IMG/VR virus record: IMGVR_UViG_3300034374_005174
Coordinates: 1-32,845 of that record
Reading direction: 5' to 3' (one strand)
Source: a virus
Length of the DNA: 32,845 bases
Numbering within the stretch: position 1 is the stretch's first letter; every line of letters starts with the position of its first letter. The position numbers and the translations under genes were made by a program. The notes beneath the pieces were generated by a model, which was not told the origin of the DNA, made no database searches, and saw nothing but the letters and a program-made list of their open reading frames with translations. This document shows, one piece after another, positions 7,539 to 23,785 of the stretch.

Positions 7539-7944
7539 CTCTTATATACGCATCCATTAACTCATCAAATACTTCTAATGTCATAGTAACATAAGTATCT
7601 ATTGGCTTCTCAATCCTTGTTACCTTTTTGGTAACTTTAGTAAACAAGAAATTAAAGCCGGGGGGCATTTCTGTTAATGGTAATATGTTTATACTTAATG
7701 ATGATTTAGCTCTACTTACCATTTTTTTACACTGTACCTGTATCTGTCTAATATATACAGGTAGTGTCGGCTTAAACCAAATATCAATCTTAAGTGCATC
7801 TAAAGCAGTACTAAACTGTCTAGATGTACCTATTTCTGCAACCTTAAAGTTTTTATTGGTAGCAGGTATAAGATTAAACTTATCTGCAAACCACTTTACT
7901 GTCCACCTTTCAAATGAATGTCCTTGCCTTCTTTGATTAGCCAT
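7513..7944 (-). CDS. Holliday-junction-resolvase-like nuclease (143 aa)
   Basis: The order RRQGHSFERWTVKWFADKF, then SRQFSTALDALKIDIWF, then YIRQIQVQCKKM resembles archaeal-type (Hjc/VRR-like) resolvases: a Glu in the first helix (E12), Asp before a strand (D54), then the E-x-K strand. Here that strand reads Q71-C-K73, so the usual Glu of E-x-K is Gln. Either activity is reduced or another residue substitutes. Expected role: resolving branched DNA before packaging. Length suits a single-domain resolvase. Confidence 0.5.
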   Translation of the reverse strand: MANQRRQGHSFERWTVKWFADKFNLIPATNKNFKVAEIGTSRQFSTALDALKIDIWFKPTLPVYIRQIQVQCKKMVSRAKSSLSINILPLTEMPPGFNFLFTKVTKKVTRIEKPIDTYVTMTLEVFDELMDAYIRDEESKLLP

Positions 7945-18882: not shown

Positions 18883-18997
18883 TTTAAGTTTATTTATAGA
18901 TATATATAATGTGGTTGTTTTTGTGTGTTGAGTGAAATGGTGTTAAAATGGGTTAGGGGTTCTAATAACCAACTGCACATACACAAGCACCAAATAT

Positions 18998-19051
18998 AAA
19001 AAAACTACCGTGTCTCATCTTATTGTTAAAAAAACAACCATGTCCTATCTT
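18998..19051. repeat. Tandem pair of 24-nt imperfect repeats, 30-bp period
   Basis: The copies at 18998-19021 and 19028-19051 share A7, C-W-A-C-C-R, TGTC and ATCTT, differing at four positions. A 30-bp period is about three helical turns, so a protein bound to both copies would face the same side. They lie about 120-170 nt upstream of the first gene of the replication operon, which suggests an operator or activator site. Confidence 0.6.
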
Positions 19052-19066
19052 CATTTAATAAAAAAA

Positions 19067-19099
19067 TATACTACAACACTATTACAGCATTGTAGCATA
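19067..19099 (-). terminator. Intrinsic terminator (possibly bidirectional)
   Basis: A 10-bp stem pairs TATACTACAA at 19067-19076 with TTGTAGCATA at 19090-19099 (one wobble or mismatch, 13-nt loop). On the minus strand a run of T residues follows (plus-strand A run 19060-19066). On the plus strand TATTTTTAA follows, so it could stop transcription both ways. It closes the unit 19780-19116. Confidence 0.7.
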
Positions 19100-19115
19100 T
19101 TTTTAAATGTGTGTG

Positions 19116-19268
19116 TTATAGATTTATAACACGTTTGTCTTCTATACCATCTATGCACCAGACTTTTACTACTCGGTTATTTTCGATAGTGTAGTAGGTG
19201 TAAGACCGTCTTTGGACAAACTTGAACCTTTTGTTTAGGTCTGCAACTAATTGCTTTAAGTCTTTCAT
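19116..19268 (-). CDS. Small basic hypothetical protein (50 aa)
   Basis: A short frame from ATG at 19268 to TAA at 19116 encodes 50 residues, starting MKDLKQLVADLNKRFKFV and containing a beta-like stretch RRSYTYYTIENNRVVKVWCID. It is 17 nt downstream of the paralogue gene at 19286-19780 and is followed by a terminator, so it forms a two-gene unit. The sequence looks coherent (amphipathic helix plus hairpin), but no family is recognised. Confidence 0.55.
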   Translation of the reverse strand: MKDLKQLVADLNKRFKFVQRRSYTYYTIENNRVVKVWCIDGIEDKRVINL

Positions 19269-19285
19269 AATCTACAGTTTAATGG

Positions 19286-19780
19286 TTATACAGATGCGGT
19301 AATGTCAACTTTAGGCATTAAGTATTCAGGTACTCTATGTCCATAAAATTTAGCACAATTATCACCACCAAGTTTAACTTCGGCATACTGGTATAGGTCT
19401 AACCCTTCGTACTGCATAATTTCACCAGTTTTAGGGTTAGCAACAGGGCTATTCTTCCATGGTGTTTTGTGTGTAGTACGATAGACAGTAGCACTTAGTT
19501 CAGCATCACCAAACAATGCTTCGTAAGTTATAAACTTACCTTTGCTTGTTTGTGTGTCAAACTTAGTTTTGTCATACGGTAGTATTGCTGTGAAGTTAAA
19601 TTCTGTACTACCACCTTGCGTTATGCTTAGTAGTGGGTTACTACTGTTGGCATAGCCTTGTGGTAATTCAGACCTTGGTATGCTACCTTTCAACACAATA
19701 ATCATCTGACTTGTGTTGTTTTCTGATTGCCATACCATAGGTGTTCCATCTTCGTTGTAGTACAAGCTTAATTTGCTCAT
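19286..19780 (-). CDS. Phage protein of a two-member paralogous family, copy A (164 aa)
   Basis: A beta-rich soluble protein of 164 aa. It shares a pattern with the protein at 22775-23293: K-G-[ST]-I-x-R-[ST]-E-L-P near the N-terminus, later V-Y-x(0,1)-R-T-T, then G-[EK/R]-I, and [LP]-L-Y-Q-Y. Function is unknown. Both copies are lead genes of short units bounded by long noncoding spacers, an arrangement suited to strong, independent expression. An abundant DNA-binding or anti-host protein is possible, but nothing in the sequence decides it. Confidence 0.7.
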   Translation of the reverse strand: MSKLSLYYNEDGTPMVWQSENNTSQMIIVLKGSIPRSELPQGYANSSNPLLSITQGGSTEFNFTAILPYDKTKFDTQTSKGKFITYEALFGDAELSATVYRTTHKTPWKNSPVANPKTGEIMQYEGLDLYQYAEVKLGGDNCAKFYGHRVPEYLMPKVDITASV

Positions 19781-20040
19781 AGTTTAAGTGTATTTAATTA
19801 ATTAACAATGACCTTTTAACACATAGGAATTTCTCACTATGTAACTTGTAACATACTAAACCGTATTCTACCGATAAAGAATCACTATTACAAGAGGTTT
19901 CAACTTTTATTTAGACACGTTTAAGTCACTACTAACTAATATAATGTGTCTTAATTTACCAGCAGTTGACTGGCGGTAATTAAATTATATACTTAAATTA
20001 ATAGTCATCATCAGATTGTTTTCGTGTTTTTTACAGTTGG
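19781..20040 (-). promoter_or_regulatory. Structured noncoding spacer (260 nt)
   Basis: No gene is seen here. It contains two pairing elements. AGACAC at 19913-19918 pairs with GTGTCT at 19946-19951. Next to it is a hairpin at 19953-19981, where AATT-T-ACC pairs with GGTAATT and an inner CAG pairs with CTG. Neither is followed by a clear U-run on the minus strand, so they may be leader structures of the gene at 19286-19780 or RNA-processing sites. Confidence 0.45.
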
Positions 20041-20259
20041 TTATGTGTTTAGATATATAATTCCATACTGTAAGCGAAGCCAAGCTATTATATCTTTATC
20101 AGATACATAGTAAGCTTCTATATCAGTTATATCTTGTTTTAGTATATAGAACATACTTTGTAAGAAACCTAATTGGCTAACTAATTCACTAATATATTCT
20201 AAATCTTTAGTTAGCAGATTTCTGTTTTGTAACTCAACTATTAATTCTAGTTCTTGCAA
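20041..20259 (-). CDS. Small hypothetical protein with probable TTG start (72 aa)
   Basis: The frame starts with TTG at 20259 (encoding MQELELIVELQNRNLL). The TTG is directly preceded by AAAAACTACAAAAA, the same leader that precedes the ATG starts at 20609 and 21835, which strongly supports this non-ATG start. The protein is helical, hydrophobic-rich but without a membrane span, and unrecognised. It lies 20 nt downstream of 20280-20609 in one unit. Confidence 0.6.
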   Translation of the reverse strand: MQELELIVELQNRNLLTKDLEYISELVSQLGFLQSMFYILKQDITDIEAYYVSDKDIIAWLRLQYGIIYLNT

Positions 20260-20279
20260 TTTTTGTAGTTTTTAATACA

Positions 20280-20609
20280 TTAGCATGATACCCAACTATG
20301 GCAGACATATTTTGACTGTAAGAAATCAATGATTTTTTCAATAGTTGGTAATTCTTCTTGCCACATATCAGATTGTTGGTAATAATTTCTTACAGAATTA
20401 TCACCGTCTTCTAATACTCTACCACTTGCAAGTTGAAAACCTATACTATCAAACCAGTTAAATGTGTTGTCTGACTTAGTACAGTCACCTCCATAATATT
20501 TAGGGTGTACTTCAACATTTAACAGTTCTTTGCAAATAATTTCATCTACATTACTAAGTGATACAGGTTTACTTGTAACCTTGTCAATTAACAGAAAATT
20601 TATTGCCAT
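20280..20609 (-). CDS. Hypothetical protein (109 aa)
   Basis: Soluble 109-aa protein with no recognised domain (MAINFLLIDKVTSKPVSLSNVDEIICKEL...). It has four cysteines, with two at the extreme C-terminus (VCHSWVSC). The ATG is preceded by the shared leader AAAAACTACAAAAATG. Further upstream is the 72-nt stem-loop at 20638-20709, so its mRNA leader would be highly structured. Confidence 0.65.
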   Translation of the reverse strand: MAINFLLIDKVTSKPVSLSNVDEIICKELLNVEVHPKYYGGDCTKSDNTFNWFDSIGFQLASGRVLEDGDNSVRNYYQQSDMWQEELPTIEKIIDFLQSKYVCHSWVSC

Positions 20610-20637
20610 TTTTGTAGTTTTTAAAGTTATAAAAATC

Positions 20638-20709
20638 GTATTATTAGTATAAGTTTACGAATGCCACGCAATTTTATAAGGACTGTAATTCCTTTTATAC
20701 CAATAATAC
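20638..20709 (-). other. Long stem-loop in the leader of 20280-20609
   Basis: The arms GTATTATT-A-GTATAA at 20638-20652 and TTATAC-C-AATAATAC at 20695-20709 pair over 14 of 15 positions. An inner hairpin, AAGGA/TCCTT at 20678-20682 and 20690-20694 with a 7-nt loop, touches the right arm. An alternative local pairing of TATAAGGA with TCCTT-TATA would compete with the outer stem, so the RNA could switch between two forms. Confidence 0.55.
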
Positions 20710-20858
20710 TAGCTTTAAAAATCACCCATAAGTTTGATGGACTTATGTCAATTTTAGTTAGTAGAAAAATGACCTACAAAGACTAAGCTCAGCCTTGGCA
20801 TACCTGACTAAAGTATGACTATTAGGGCTCATAGTATAGTCAATACTACTATAAGGCA
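20710..20858 (-). promoter_or_regulatory. Structured noncoding spacer with two more hairpins
   Basis: CATAAGT at 20727-20733 pairs perfectly with ACTTATG at 20741-20747 (7-nt loop). TAGTAT at 20832-20837 pairs with ATACTA at 20843-20848 (5-nt loop), just beyond the stop of 20859-21083. No gene is seen between. The latter may act at the 3' end of the upstream unit; the former falls in the leader of 20280-20609. Confidence 0.45.
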
Positions 20859-21083
20859 TCACCCTTTACGCCCACATTTAATCTTACCTATGACTTTCAT
20901 ACCTGCTCGTACATAACCACGGTGTGAGTGCGTGTAACGTTGTAAGACTTTATTATCTTCTACAAATACTTGTAATGATGCCCAACAACATCCGCAGCCT
21001 TCTTGCCAATAATATGTTTTTTGCCTTTTTGCATAGTTTTTGGCTTGTGATACGGTATTAAATACTATAAATTTGTCTTCCAT
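20859..21083 (-). CDS. Small Cys-rich basic protein (74 aa)
   Basis: A 74-aa protein with T-Y-Y-W-Q-E-G-C-G-C-C-W in the middle and a basic C-terminus ending KIKCGRKG. The C-G-C-C cluster plus a later Cys and two His (THSH) could bind metal, but no known zinc-finger spacing is evident. It starts 2 nt after the stop of 21086-21835, so the two are co-translated. Confidence 0.6.
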   Translation of the reverse strand: MEDKFIVFNTVSQAKNYAKRQKTYYWQEGCGCCWASLQVFVEDNKVLQRYTHSHRGYVRAGMKVIGKIKCGRKG

Positions 21084-21085
21084 CT

Positions 21086-21835
21086 TTACTTGTATTTGTT
21101 ATGTGGTATATTATCCCACTGTTTACCTGCAAAAGACAATATTTCTTTACCTGGAAATATTTTTTCTGCACATTGTGTAGCAATACGGTCATCATATACA
21201 CCATAATCACCAGATTGTGCGTATAAAATAACTTTATTGTCAAAGGTTCTTAGCCATCCTCCGTTTATGGTAGACCAGTTGTCTAACATAAATATGCCAC
21301 TTATGGCACTATGGCCGTTAGATACAAACCCATAAGGGTCGAATCTAAACCTGTATTCGTTTTCATCTAACCTGCTTTGTTGGATAATAAACTTTTTACC
21401 TACGGTGTTTTCATAGGTACTGTAGTTTAAGTGATTAGAATATACTTGATAGGCAATATCTTGCAATTTCCTATTTAGCGTATAGACTTCATCACTTGCA
21501 TTTTTCCAGTATTTTTCGTAGTCAGGTTCTTCATACTCTAACTCTAATTCATCTTCCTCTTTTTTCTTCTTTTCTTCAGCTTGTAAATAGTTAATTAACT
21601 TTAGAAGTTCTGCTTCTTTTTCAATCATAGCATTGTATCTTTCTGGTTGTACTACAGATAAAAATTTATCCATTTTTTCTACAGGTATATCCCAGTTCCA
21701 ATGTCCACCAGCAAATGCTTTAAAGTCATTAGCATCTACTGCTAGGTTATAACTTCTAGTAGCTAGATTGATGGTTTCAGAATCATAACTTAGGACTTTG
21801 TAAACACCTTTACGGCTGTGTAAGTGTATTCTCAT
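21086..21835 (-). CDS. Hypothetical phage protein with acidic central linker (249 aa)
   Basis: I choose the ATG at 21835 (MRIHLHSRKGVYKVL) over the in-frame TTG at 21874 because the shared leader AAAAACTACAAAAATG ends at this ATG. The N-terminal about 75 residues form one globular unit. Residues about 85-115 are a charged helix and linker (EEKKKKEEDELELEYEE), and the C-terminal half is a beta-rich domain with several Tyr/Trp/Gly turns. No catalytic motif is seen and no family is recognised. Confidence 0.65.
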   Translation of the reverse strand: MRIHLHSRKGVYKVLSYDSETINLATRSYNLAVDANDFKAFAGGHWNWDIPVEKMDKFLSVVQPERYNAMIEKEAELLKLINYLQAEEKKKKEEDELELEYEEPDYEKYWKNASDEVYTLNRKLQDIAYQVYSNHLNYSTYENTVGKKFIIQQSRLDENEYRFRFDPYGFVSNGHSAISGIFMLDNWSTINGGWLRTFDNKVILYAQSGDYGVYDDRIATQCAEKIFPGKEILSFAGKQWDNIPHNKYK

Positions 21836-21874
21836 TTTTGTAGTTTTTAAAGTTAAAGAAGTTCTGTACTGCAA

Positions 21875-21903
21875 CTGCGGCAGGTTTAATGTGGTAAACT
21901 ACC
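21875..21903 (-). repeat. 29-nt repeated hairpin element, copy 1
   Basis: 25 of 29 positions are identical to 22703-22731. The core can fold as GTTTA-loop-TAAAC with flanking GG/CC pairs. On the minus strand each copy follows a terminator, and this copy lies about 40 nt upstream of the ATG at 21835. Terminator then element then gene suggests a promoter or leader element that restarts transcription. Confidence 0.6.
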
Positions 21904-21931
21904 ACCATGTTACCTACCTTTGTATAAATAA

Positions 21932-21955
21932 AAGTAAGGCTGTTACACCTTACTT
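21932..21955 (-). terminator. Intrinsic terminator after 21963-22220
   Basis: AAGTAAGG at 21932-21939 pairs perfectly with CCTTACTT at 21948-21955 (8-nt loop). On the minus strand a T-rich tract (TTTTATTTAT) follows, and the hairpin begins just after the stop of the upstream gene. A strong intrinsic terminator. Confidence 0.75.
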
Positions 21956-21962
21956 ATAATCA

Positions 21963-22220
21963 TCAATCAATTCCAAATATATCCTCCTCGTATACATGTC
22001 TAATAGATTTGCTTTTTTCTTTGTTTATATAATCTATCAAACCTTGTGGGTAGTGCCAACTCCACCCTTCACCAGGTATTGTCTTGACATAGCCTTGAAT
22101 AACACCATTTTTGGCAAAGTAAATTATGTAATTGTTGCCAAGGTTAAAGTCTTTTTCGTGTAGTGCTACAGTTGTGTACCCAGCATTTTCTGCGTTGGCT
22201 AAAACAGTAGTTAAGTCCAT
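21963..22220 (-). CDS. Hypothetical protein, single-gene unit (85 aa)
   Basis: ATG at 22220 (MDLTTVLANAENAGYTTVALH) is preferred over the in-frame GTG at 22262, which falls in the repeat at 22247-22262. It is a small alpha/beta-looking protein with E-G-W-S-W-H-Y-P near residue 50; no family recognised. It stands alone between a 0.55-kb structured leader and its own terminator. Confidence 0.6.
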   Translation of the reverse strand: MDLTTVLANAENAGYTTVALHEKDFNLGNNYIIYFAKNGVIQGYVKTIPGEGWSWHYPQGLIDYINKEKSKSIRHVYEEDIFGID

Positions 22221-22246
22221 AATACATGTTTTTGAAGTTAAGAAAA

Positions 22247-22262
22247 TAAGCAGTTTATACAC
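22247..22262 (-). repeat. 16-nt direct repeat, copy 1
   Basis: TAAGCAGTTTATACAC here is repeated exactly at 22444-22459. This copy ends 27 nt upstream of the ATG at 22220 and continues into a short AAGCA/TGCTT hairpin. In AT-rich phage DNA two exact 16-mers 197 bp apart in a noncoding spacer suggest a shared protein- or RNA-binding site. Confidence 0.65.
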
Positions 22263-22443
22263 ATGCTTAGGTGTTAAGACCTTATAACTACCAATTATCT
22301 TCCTTTTGCAGTGGCTCAGAAAGGTTTAAAGTAACCTGTTAGCTATCACCGTCGAAGCGTCCTCGTTTTACGGGTTGTACTTCCCCAACTTCATGCACTT
22401 GCCAGTGCAACGATGTCAATTCATCCCAACGGCTTTCGGTCTT

Positions 22444-22459
22444 TAAGCAGTTTATACAC
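22444..22459 (-). repeat. 16-nt direct repeat, copy 2
   Basis: Exact second copy of TAAGCAGTTTATACAC, in the middle of the structured region. The bases after it form TACACT/AGTGTA. Similarity to copy 1 continues weakly for about 15 more bases, suggesting a partial duplication of a leader segment. Confidence 0.65.
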
Positions 22460-22702
22460 TTGCTACAGTGTAATAAGGTTTTCCACTAAGCTACCAACAT
22501 AGGAAAACCGAAGATACAGGCTACATATATAACATCTGCATATTATATACCGGTACGCCTTTTAGGTTTGTTTTTTCCATAATAAAGCCTAATGCGCAGA
22601 AACATTAGACAATTTAAGGGTTAAGAAATAAGATACCATAGTAACAGTTGTTTCAACATGTCAGGTCTAGCTTGTATGGCCTTGGTAACCATGCAAGCAA
22701 AT

Positions 22703-22731
22703 CTGCGGTAGGTTTAGTGTGGTAGACTGCC
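22703..22731 (-). repeat. 29-nt repeated hairpin element, copy 2
   Basis: Matches 21875-21903 at 25 of 29 positions, all four changes being transitions. On the minus strand it comes 9 nt after the terminator at 22741-22768 and opens the long structured region. The same terminator-then-element order as in copy 1 argues for a functional cassette. Confidence 0.6.
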
Positions 22732-22740
22732 GTATAAAAA

Positions 22741-22768
22741 AGGCAGAACGCTTTTACACGCTCTGCCT
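22741..22768 (-). terminator. Intrinsic terminator after the paralogue at 22775-23293
   Basis: AGGCAGA at 22741-22747 pairs with TCTGCCT at 22762-22768, with a further CG/CG pair inside. On the minus strand a run of six T (plus-strand A run 22736-22741) follows. It begins 6 nt after the stop codon of the gene, a textbook intrinsic terminator. Confidence 0.8.
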
Positions 22769-22774
22769 GTTGTT

Positions 22775-23293
22775 TTAAACACTAGCCTGTTCGGTAGTGT
22801 TTCCGTCATTAGATGGTCTTTCAGCCATCCAGAACGGCTTGTTTTCGTTAACCATAAATTGGTCAACGTCTTCAAGTTTAGTATTGATGGTTGAGTACTG
22901 ATACAACGGCTTACCGTTAAGGCTAAGTATCCTTCCATCTTTACCTGCTGTGACTGGCGCAGCGTATCCGTCATGCCATGTAGTACGATGTACATACACT
23001 TCGACAGGTCTGCCAACAAGCTTGTTAATGCTTGTTCTGGCTTTAATGCCAAAAGCCTTAACATTAGCCGTAAAGGCATTTAAGAATACATAGAAAGTGA
23101 ATGTATCACTTAGCTTAGTATCACCGTTAATGCCTTTTAACAACTCCAACTGCACATCGCTAATGGCAGATGTATCACCTGACCAATTGTCTGGTAACTC
23201 GGTACGGTTTATAGTACCTTTGCACCATACTGACTGAAGCTTTGGGTTGGAAGTGTTGGCTACTTTAGCCACAGCAATTTTTAAACTTTTCAT
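22775..23293 (-). CDS. Phage protein of a two-member paralogous family, copy B (172 aa)
   Basis: Shares K-G-T-I-N-R-T-E-L-P, V-Y-V-H-R-T-T, G-R-I and P-L-Y-Q-Y with the protein at 19286-19780, in the same order and at similar spacing. The remainder differs, so the duplication is old. The protein is beta-rich with a polar tail (RPSNDGNTTEQASV). It is the first minus-strand gene next to the divergent control region and is closed by its own strong terminator, so it is a stand-alone, probably highly and early expressed gene. Function unknown. Confidence 0.7.
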   Translation of the reverse strand: MKSLKIAVAKVANTSNPKLQSVWCKGTINRTELPDNWSGDTSAISDVQLELLKGINGDTKLSDTFTFYVFLNAFTANVKAFGIKARTSINKLVGRPVEVYVHRTTWHDGYAAPVTAGKDGRILSLNGKPLYQYSTINTKLEDVDQFMVNENKPFWMAERPSNDGNTTEQASV

Positions 23294-23380
23294 AATAAAT
23301 GAAATTTAAGAAGTTAATAAATAGAAATACAATCCTTCGGCAATATTAGTATGGTTGACTAAATTACTCTTGTGTAATTA

Positions 23381-23399
23381 ATAATATATGATATATTAT
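23381..23399. promoter_or_regulatory. Perfect 19-bp A/T palindrome
   Basis: ATAATATAT at 23381-23389 and ATATATTAT at 23391-23399 are exact reverse complements around one G. It lies 88-106 bp upstream of the minus-strand gene at 23293. It could be an operator for a dimeric repressor or a DNA-unwinding site; in pure A/T DNA some palindromes arise by chance. Confidence 0.45.
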
Positions 23400-23609
23400 A
23401 TGGGGGGTATCAGTCTGCATAAATTTACGGGGGGCTGTTTTATATGGTGCATCTACACACACAGTAAACTCTTATGTTGCAATAACACAGACGTATAAGA
23501 CAAGTAAACTTGACACAAACTTAATTTAGTCGATAAAAACAGTACGTTCGTCGAAAAAATAAAAAATAATTGTACAAAAATTTGCTTTTTTCATACTAAC
23601 CACCGTAAC

Positions 23610-23638
23610 TTTACTATACGAAGGATGAGTATAGTAAA
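23610..23638. promoter_or_regulatory. Perfect 10-bp inverted repeat with 9-nt loop
   Basis: TTTACTATAC at 23610-23619 is the exact reverse complement of GTATAGTAAA at 23629-23638. It lies 150-175 bp upstream of the first plus-strand gene. It has no flanking U-run, so it is more likely an operator or RNA-processing hairpin than a terminator. Confidence 0.55.
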
Positions 23639-23729
23639 TTAAAACAACTGAAGTAGGCTGATATTGGTACGGTTTGTCCATAGTCTATCAAGTAGATTCA
23701 TAATAAGTTGGTCATAGTTTAAGGGTTTT

Positions 23730-23757
23730 AAAGCTGTTCTGTAAAAAGGACAGCTTT
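23730..23757 (+). terminator. Plus-strand intrinsic terminator upstream of the late operon
   Basis: AAAGCTGT at 23730-23737 pairs perfectly with ACAGCTTT at 23750-23757 and a T7 run follows on the plus strand. It ends only 28 nt before the first late gene. It must stop, or attenuate, plus-strand transcripts that begin inside the control region. Confidence 0.7.
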
Positions 23758-23773
23758 TTTTGTTTTTTATTAC

Positions 23774-23781
23774 TATATTTG
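23774..23781 (+). promoter_or_regulatory. Possible promoter -7 box of Bacteroidota type
   Basis: TATATTTG matches the Bacteroidota -7 consensus TAnnTTTG. It is only 4 nt from the ATG at 23786, so a transcript from it would have almost no leader. No TTTG sits at the expected -33 spacing; a TTTG lies just 11 nt upstream. The same box type occurs at 31934-31941 before another late gene. Confidence 0.35.
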
Positions 23782-23785
23782 TTAT

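Follow-up and report, generated by a model that had tools for sequence, protein, structure and literature searches.

Background

An early regulatory module located between the replication and structural arms has been described for the order Crassvirales (PMC10136315), and in Cellulophaga phage phi14:2, a member of the Steigviridae in this order, the virion polymerase is responsible for rifampicin-resistant transcription of the early and replication genes (PMC10136315, PMC7886860). Here we analyse positions 18883–23785 of a 32,845-nt linear IMG/VR virus record (IMGVR_UViG_3300034374_005174; "the window" denotes this whole record stretch), in which short minus-strand transcription units alternate with long spacers. 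The stretch carries a conserved head element in the spacer between the divergent arms (23393–23465, minus strand) and a 24-bp promoter-like repeat, TYTACCACAYTAAACCTRCCGCAG. The overall best explanation is that it represents a crAss-like phage's early (regulatory) module, organised by putative promoters and terminators, to which we assign a probability of roughly 0.6.

The stretch resembles the early module of phi14:2 and crAss001 (PMC10136315) in its position between the arms, its short genes of no known function, its abundance of spacers, and the divergent late arm; the gene content of that module, however, is not common to the window. In Thermus phage P23-45, pre-early and early promoters are read by virion and non-virion RNA polymerases (PMC10770324). 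As in P23-45, short motifs are repeated before early units and the proposed readers are phage two-barrel RNA polymerases, whereas the phage group and the motifs are different, and the starts were mapped in P23-45 but are proposed here from sequence only. The promoters of the N4 virion RNA polymerase are early promoters of an injected polymerase. A short G-C hairpin is likewise possible in some crAss-like head elements (phi14:2, tikkala, and cr109_1), but the sequence differs from that of N4 and no hairpin is conserved over 18 head elements. The start-associated sequences of cluster K mycobacteriophages adjoin start codons and are translation-related signals. They share with the 24-bp repeat the presence of a short motif before several genes of one phage (PMC3203893); in contrast, the 24-mers of the window are located 39–482 nt upstream of the starts, two of them right after terminators.

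Phage identity and relatives

According to the large terminase subunit (TerL), the closest match of the window is phi14:2 (33% identity over 92% of the query), followed by gut crAss-like phages, and both TerL and portal were matched by PHROGs profiles. The window encodes PolA, a DNA helicase, a DnaB-like protein, a Sak4-like protein, a primase, and a portal, with the replication arm on the minus strand and the virion arm diverging from it on the plus strand. Divergent arms with PolA/PolB, DnaB, primase, and Sak4-like protein, the arrangement used to recognise Crassvirales, are therefore present. These genes and their layout identify a crAss-like phage, in which the stretch occupies the early-module position (PMC10136315), in agreement with the original prediction of early genes between the replication and virion blocks. 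The 32.8 kb window is probably a fragment, and the transcription block, with the virion RNA polymerase genes, would fall outside it.

Two relatives span the region: L003 (contig 3300025671_000218) and L009 (3300007212_000121); L008 is 99.99% the same as L009, and both are counted as one lineage. L003 and L009 share the layout of the window: on the replication side, their units are short and the spacers between them long. A PolA scan across bacterial genomes gave no match. In L009, an opposite-strand gene for a DNA methyltransferase-like protein of 412 aa (792–2030) breaks into the replication arm.

Spacers, units, and terminators

With gaps taken from the curated gene list, all six gaps of at least 100 nt in the window fall within 18883–23785, with sizes of 127–554 nt: 18883–19115 (233 nt), 19781–20040 (260), 20610–20858 (249), 21836–21962 (127), 22221–22774 (554), and 23294–23785 (492). 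The stretch holds 1954 of the 2403 noncoding nucleotides of the window, and the biggest intergenic gap elsewhere is 95 nt. Both the unusual spacing claimed in the original prediction and its five unit starts (23293, 22220, 21835, 20609, and 19780, each the ATG of an open reading frame, ORF) are thus borne out.

The same holds for the three units said to end in intrinsic terminators, as a hairpin followed by a T-run is located immediately 3' of the stop codon at 22741, 21932, and 19063 on the minus strand. These terminators occupy 22734–22768 (after gene 22775–23293, −18.5 kcal/mol), 21925–21955 (after gene 21963–22220, −10.4 kcal/mol), and 19056–19106 (after gene 19116–19268, −19.5 kcal/mol, local fold z of −5.4). 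The number of terminator-like sites (7, vs 3.5 ± 2.0 in shuffles) shows only a slight excess; what speaks for the terminators is their stem energy and position.

Repeated elements, which the spacers had also been said to contain, are represented by three copies of the 24-nt element and a recurring A/T-rich leader before ATG codons. The leader, TTAACCnTTAAA, was considered as a promoter and dropped: it precedes internal genes as well and is therefore read as translation-start context. Matches to a sigma-70-like promoter occur at chance level (42 vs 44.8).

The conserved head element

In the window, the head element consists of a GTGTGTG-like block at approximately 23462–23444, a C-run at 23434–23429, and a second C-run at 23407–23402 within ATACCCCC, and is directed into the early genes. 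In the divergent spacers of the window, L003, and L009, two same-sense C-runs are exactly 27 nt apart (CCCCC...ATACCCCC). A pattern scan of IMG/VR for this pair returned 13 stretches, three of which belong to these lineages. A crAss-like terminase is encoded in two of the 10 others (E = 3.6e-93 and 3.7e-28), where the pair again occupies a noncoding spacer and small genes follow it. Among 15 Crassvirales genomes not used for the definition, sense pairs with C-runs 24–30 nt apart are present in 12 and antisense pairs in none, while shuffles give an expectation of 0.21; for the last four genomes, the pair was predicted before the sequence was fetched. The alignment adds the GTGTGTG-like block 20–45 nt upstream, and A/T-rich DNA lies upstream of the C-run repeats in most genomes.

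In a leave-one-group-out search with nhmmer, the true site has rank 1 on the right strand in all 18 genomes, including the window, whose site is found at E = 0.0014 by a model built from other families only. Scores are weak in a few genomes (E = 5.2 for L009, 0.39 for L003, and 0.28 for phi14:2, whose site is at about 98010 on the plus strand of its record); in these, the assignment relies on rank, place, and strand. With the full model, a site is also found in cr53_1, which was not used for training, at the record start (E = 6.7e-6), the predicted edge at which the divergent spacer reaches the end of the record. In the Oafivirinae genomes cr124_1 and cr130_1 the element is not in the divergent spacer; sense copies that keep the GTGTG and double C-run make-up are instead located in early-side spacers 2–3 kb in (E = 0.001 and 0.038 for one locus). 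Within the 745 kb searched, only true sites fall below E = 0.01.

The head element is thus present in 21 of the 21 crAss-like genomes examined (the 18 of the leave-group-out search and 3 outside the model, cr53_1, cr124_1, and cr130_1), always directed into the early genes, in a sample without Intestiviridae and Crevaviridae (including p-crAssphage NC_024711) and with the cr273_1 stretch stopping short of the early arm. It is closer to the early than to the late start codon in 17 of 18 genomes. Two further similarities were noted nearby: a 35-nt stretch, GACGAACGTAC...TATCGAC, is 86% conserved between the window (23526–23560) and L003 (4362–4396) and was not found in L009, and TATGGACAAACC is common to the divergent spacers of all three lineages.

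The 24-bp repeat

Three minus-strand copies of the 24-bp repeat, at 23358, 22726, and 21898, precede the genes starting at 23293, 22220, and 21835, respectively. The first (TCAACCATACTAATATTGCCGAAG, 23335–23358) is located 41 nt ahead of ATG 23293, the second (TCTACCACACTAAACCTACCGCAG, 22703–22726) immediately follows a terminator, and the third (TTTACCACATTAAACCTGCCGCAG, 21875–21898) is located 39 nt ahead of ATG 21835. The copies at 22726 and 21898, both right after terminators, have TYTACCACAYTAAACCTRCCGCAG in common, and a model built from these two recovers copy 23358 as rank 3 in the whole window on both strands, with 18.0 bits compared with 13.6 for the next site down.

Similar elements occur on the sense strand of the corresponding spacers in the relatives, with four sites of the related form CGTTTACAAC-N5-AACTTGGTAATCA in L009 and four of the form YTACAAY-N5/6-ARCT in L003. 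Models trained on L009 or L003 place spacer sites of the other lineage 1st and 2nd, or 1st, 2nd, and 4th. A single degenerate pattern for the three lineages gives 10 sense matches in the spacers, 0 antisense, and 9 in the remaining 138 kb on both strands; the cross-lineage ranks are a cleaner test than these pattern counts. We infer that the 24-mers serve as promoters that would restart transcription after each terminator.

In the window, L003, and L009, a 24-mer-like copy starts 49–68 nt past the second C-run of the head element. Such a distance would also suit a head element to which a DNA-binding protein of the phage attaches as to an operator or activator site, with the 24-mer about 50–70 nt downstream as the core promoter. 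The C-runs 27 nt apart resemble paired half-sites, and conserved regulators and HU-like genes are found on the late side of Crassvirales. However, the 24-mer was sought in three lineages only, while the head element is in all genomes, and no regulator is tied to it; this explanation is possible, if doubtful.

Another view is that this is a fast-evolving accessory region whose loose packing is merely what gene loss and turnover left behind, with a single upstream promoter from which the whole is read through. Its gene content does vary among the window, L003, and L009, but terminators and sense-only repeated elements are similarly arranged in all three lineages and the head element is conserved across Crassvirales, and we regard this view as very improbable.

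Folding of the spacers and noncoding RNA

The original description of the spacers as hairpin-rich stands only in part: strong hairpins are present, but the spacers as a class barely exceed the rest of the minus strand in structure. For 120-nt windows, the spacer mean z is −1.04 vs −0.59 for the rest of the minus strand (p = 0.06), and the strongest local folds are the terminators. In some spacers, longer folds reach z of −2.6 to −4.0 (−3.6 in L003 and −4.0 in L009). Rfam shows no match at the gathering threshold in the window, L003, or L009, and the hits up to E = 10 are at chance level. Spacers of the three lineages could not be aligned with one another. Given the negative Rfam result, the absence of alignable spacers, and no general excess of structure, the suggestion that the region encodes several noncoding RNAs is not supported here.

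RNA genes in such spacers nevertheless have precedent in Crassvirales. Four gut Crassvirales have hatchet ribozymes in the equivalent long spacers of the early side, namely cr52_1 (L051:1483–1608), cr125_1 (L053:9908–10033), cr115_1 (L054:5124–5247), and cr60_1 (L058:101–229); in cr125_1 (L053:9639–9845) and cr60_1 (L058:1703–1916), RAGATH-7 RNAs are present as well. The spacers of the window could therefore encode several structured RNAs (ribozymes or regulatory RNAs), with the apparent units being a by-product, an idea to which the low z values of the L003 and L009 spacers and the stretch 22221–22702, G+C-rich for a spacer, also lend some weight. Against it stand Rfam matches no better than chance and spacer structure not significantly above the rest, and we consider it unlikely. 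As a side observation, the more distant crAss-like contig G006 contains a tmRNA gene whose edge overlaps that of a match to a group I intron (L049:16709–17295).

Genes and leaders of the region

The first early gene (22775–23293, minus strand, as are all genes of this region) encodes a 172-aa protein of no known function, which is paralogous to the 164-aa product of 19286–19780 (BLASTP E = 3e-6). These paralogous early proteins, without database relatives, bracket the region, and further family members are encoded in L003 (4684–5202 and 7396–7866) and L009 (5911–6459). For the early proteins of the region, viral contigs scanned with single sequences and with profiles yielded no close relatives outside the three lineages. 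Structure prediction for the paralogous early protein is poor (pLDDT 57), and fold searches gave no match. The adjoining replication genes suggest a DNA-binding role, as yet unproven, and a role in binding single-stranded DNA is only a guess.

The unit starting at 22220 has a 482-nt leader or noncoding stretch (22221–22702), with G+C locally up to 47% and a fold z of −2.6 over 480 nt. It contains a 19-codon ORF, MEKTNLKGVPVYNMQMLYM, at 22521–22580 (minus), which is preceded by the usual pre-ATG motif and is a possible leader peptide. The leader is followed by an 85-aa ORF (21963–22220) with no family match. The third unit comprises a 249-aa gene (21086–21835), the homologue of which in L009 (6653–7375) is 37% identical in the alignment, and a 74-aa ORF (20859–21083). 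The spacer of unit 20609 (20610–20858, fold z −2.9), whose 3' end is the pre-ATG leader TTTTTATAACTTTAAAAACTACAAAA, precedes ORFs of 109 aa (20280–20609) and 72 aa (20041–20259, TTG start); like the 74-aa ORF, these have no assigned function. The spacer of unit 19780 (19781–20040) is followed by the second paralogue and a small 50-aa ORF (19116–19268).

T-run hairpins are located about 26–38 nt ahead of start codons in all three lineages. In the window these are a terminator-like hairpin with a T-run at 23730–23764 (plus strand, −14.3 kcal/mol), just ahead of the late arm's first gene (23786), and a second, weak one at 22249–22271 (minus), just ahead of ATG 22220; corresponding T-runs occur at 6625 in L003 and at 7730, 6496, and 5640 in L009. 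Possible roles are attenuators, RNA 3' ends, or stabilisers of mRNA 5' ends.

Discussion

According to the proposed scheme, transcription of the early arm would start in the divergent spacer, beside the head element, the intrinsic terminators would stop transcription of the first units, and the 24-mers at 23358, 22726, and 21898 would restart it, with the first three units forming short, separately initiated transcripts. The scheme builds on directly observed features, i.e., the layout, the sequence and fold of the terminators, the repeats and their occurrence in spacers in sense orientation only, and a head element conserved in crAss-like phages. We infer from these that the elements are promoters, with the head element as either the principal early promoter or the activator site of that promoter. 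Since the early genes of phi14:2 are transcribed by the virion polymerase, a virion RNA polymerase injected with the DNA is proposed to start the early arm here as well, and by this analogy would recognise the head element. Independent initiation of the units is supported by the arrangement of these predicted signals. The individual control of early genes suggested in the original prediction is accordingly supported for the first three units, which are bounded by promoter-like elements and terminators, but not for units 20609 and 19780.

Several results weigh against the promoter scheme. The degenerate pattern was first seen by eye and shaped on the same sites, which makes its counts partly circular. 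The window copies are not recovered by the models trained on L009 or L003, so the cross-lineage tie of the 24-mer is one of resemblance only. No copy was recognised ahead of units 20609 and 19780, and independence is thus not shown for these two. The canonical Bacteroidetes promoter is not matched either, with no consistent pair of TTG and TAnnTTTG; TTG followed after 17–23 nt by TAnnTTTG fits just one 24-mer-like site, at 7948 in L009. RNAalifold finds no shared fold or pairs across the 18 head elements, and a conserved RNA hairpin as the nature of the head element was rejected. Finally, the element (23393–23465) is near the cumulative GC-skew minimum of the window (23230), as an origin of replication might be.

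The head element may indeed be considered as such an origin, bound by a phage initiator, with two C-rich repeats, an A/T-rich stretch, and a variable hairpin. The position in the divergent spacer close to the skew minimum, the direct C-run repeats, and the A/T-rich upstream DNA in most genomes agree with this. However, the strand on which genes lie also shapes GC skew, which deprives the minimum of independent weight, and the element is always directed into the early genes. In Oafivirinae it is displaced by ~2–3 kb into an early-side spacer and is still in sense orientation, as for a site tied to a transcription unit. Constant orientation and displacement with orientation kept fit a promoter or activator site better than a fixed origin, and we find an origin rather unlikely. 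The broader reading, in which the virion RNA polymerase uses the head element as early promoter, or as an essential recognition site of that promoter, across Crassvirales and the 24-mers are lineage-specific secondary promoters, is put forward tentatively, at somewhat less than even odds.

No earlier report of such an element was found in the open-access literature searched, nor was a description of the DNA recognised by the injected crAss-like RNA polymerase. If the promoter reading is true, the head element would be, within that literature, the first recognised promoter signal of crAss-like phages, which rank among the most abundant human gut viruses and have an unusual injected RNA polymerase. 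It provides a strong lead to where these phages begin gene expression, and, as an element of ~75–90 bp in fixed orientation in every examined genome, a concrete sequence for tests of the polymerase and of start sites. It may also serve as a marker for locating the early arm in new crAss-like genomes.

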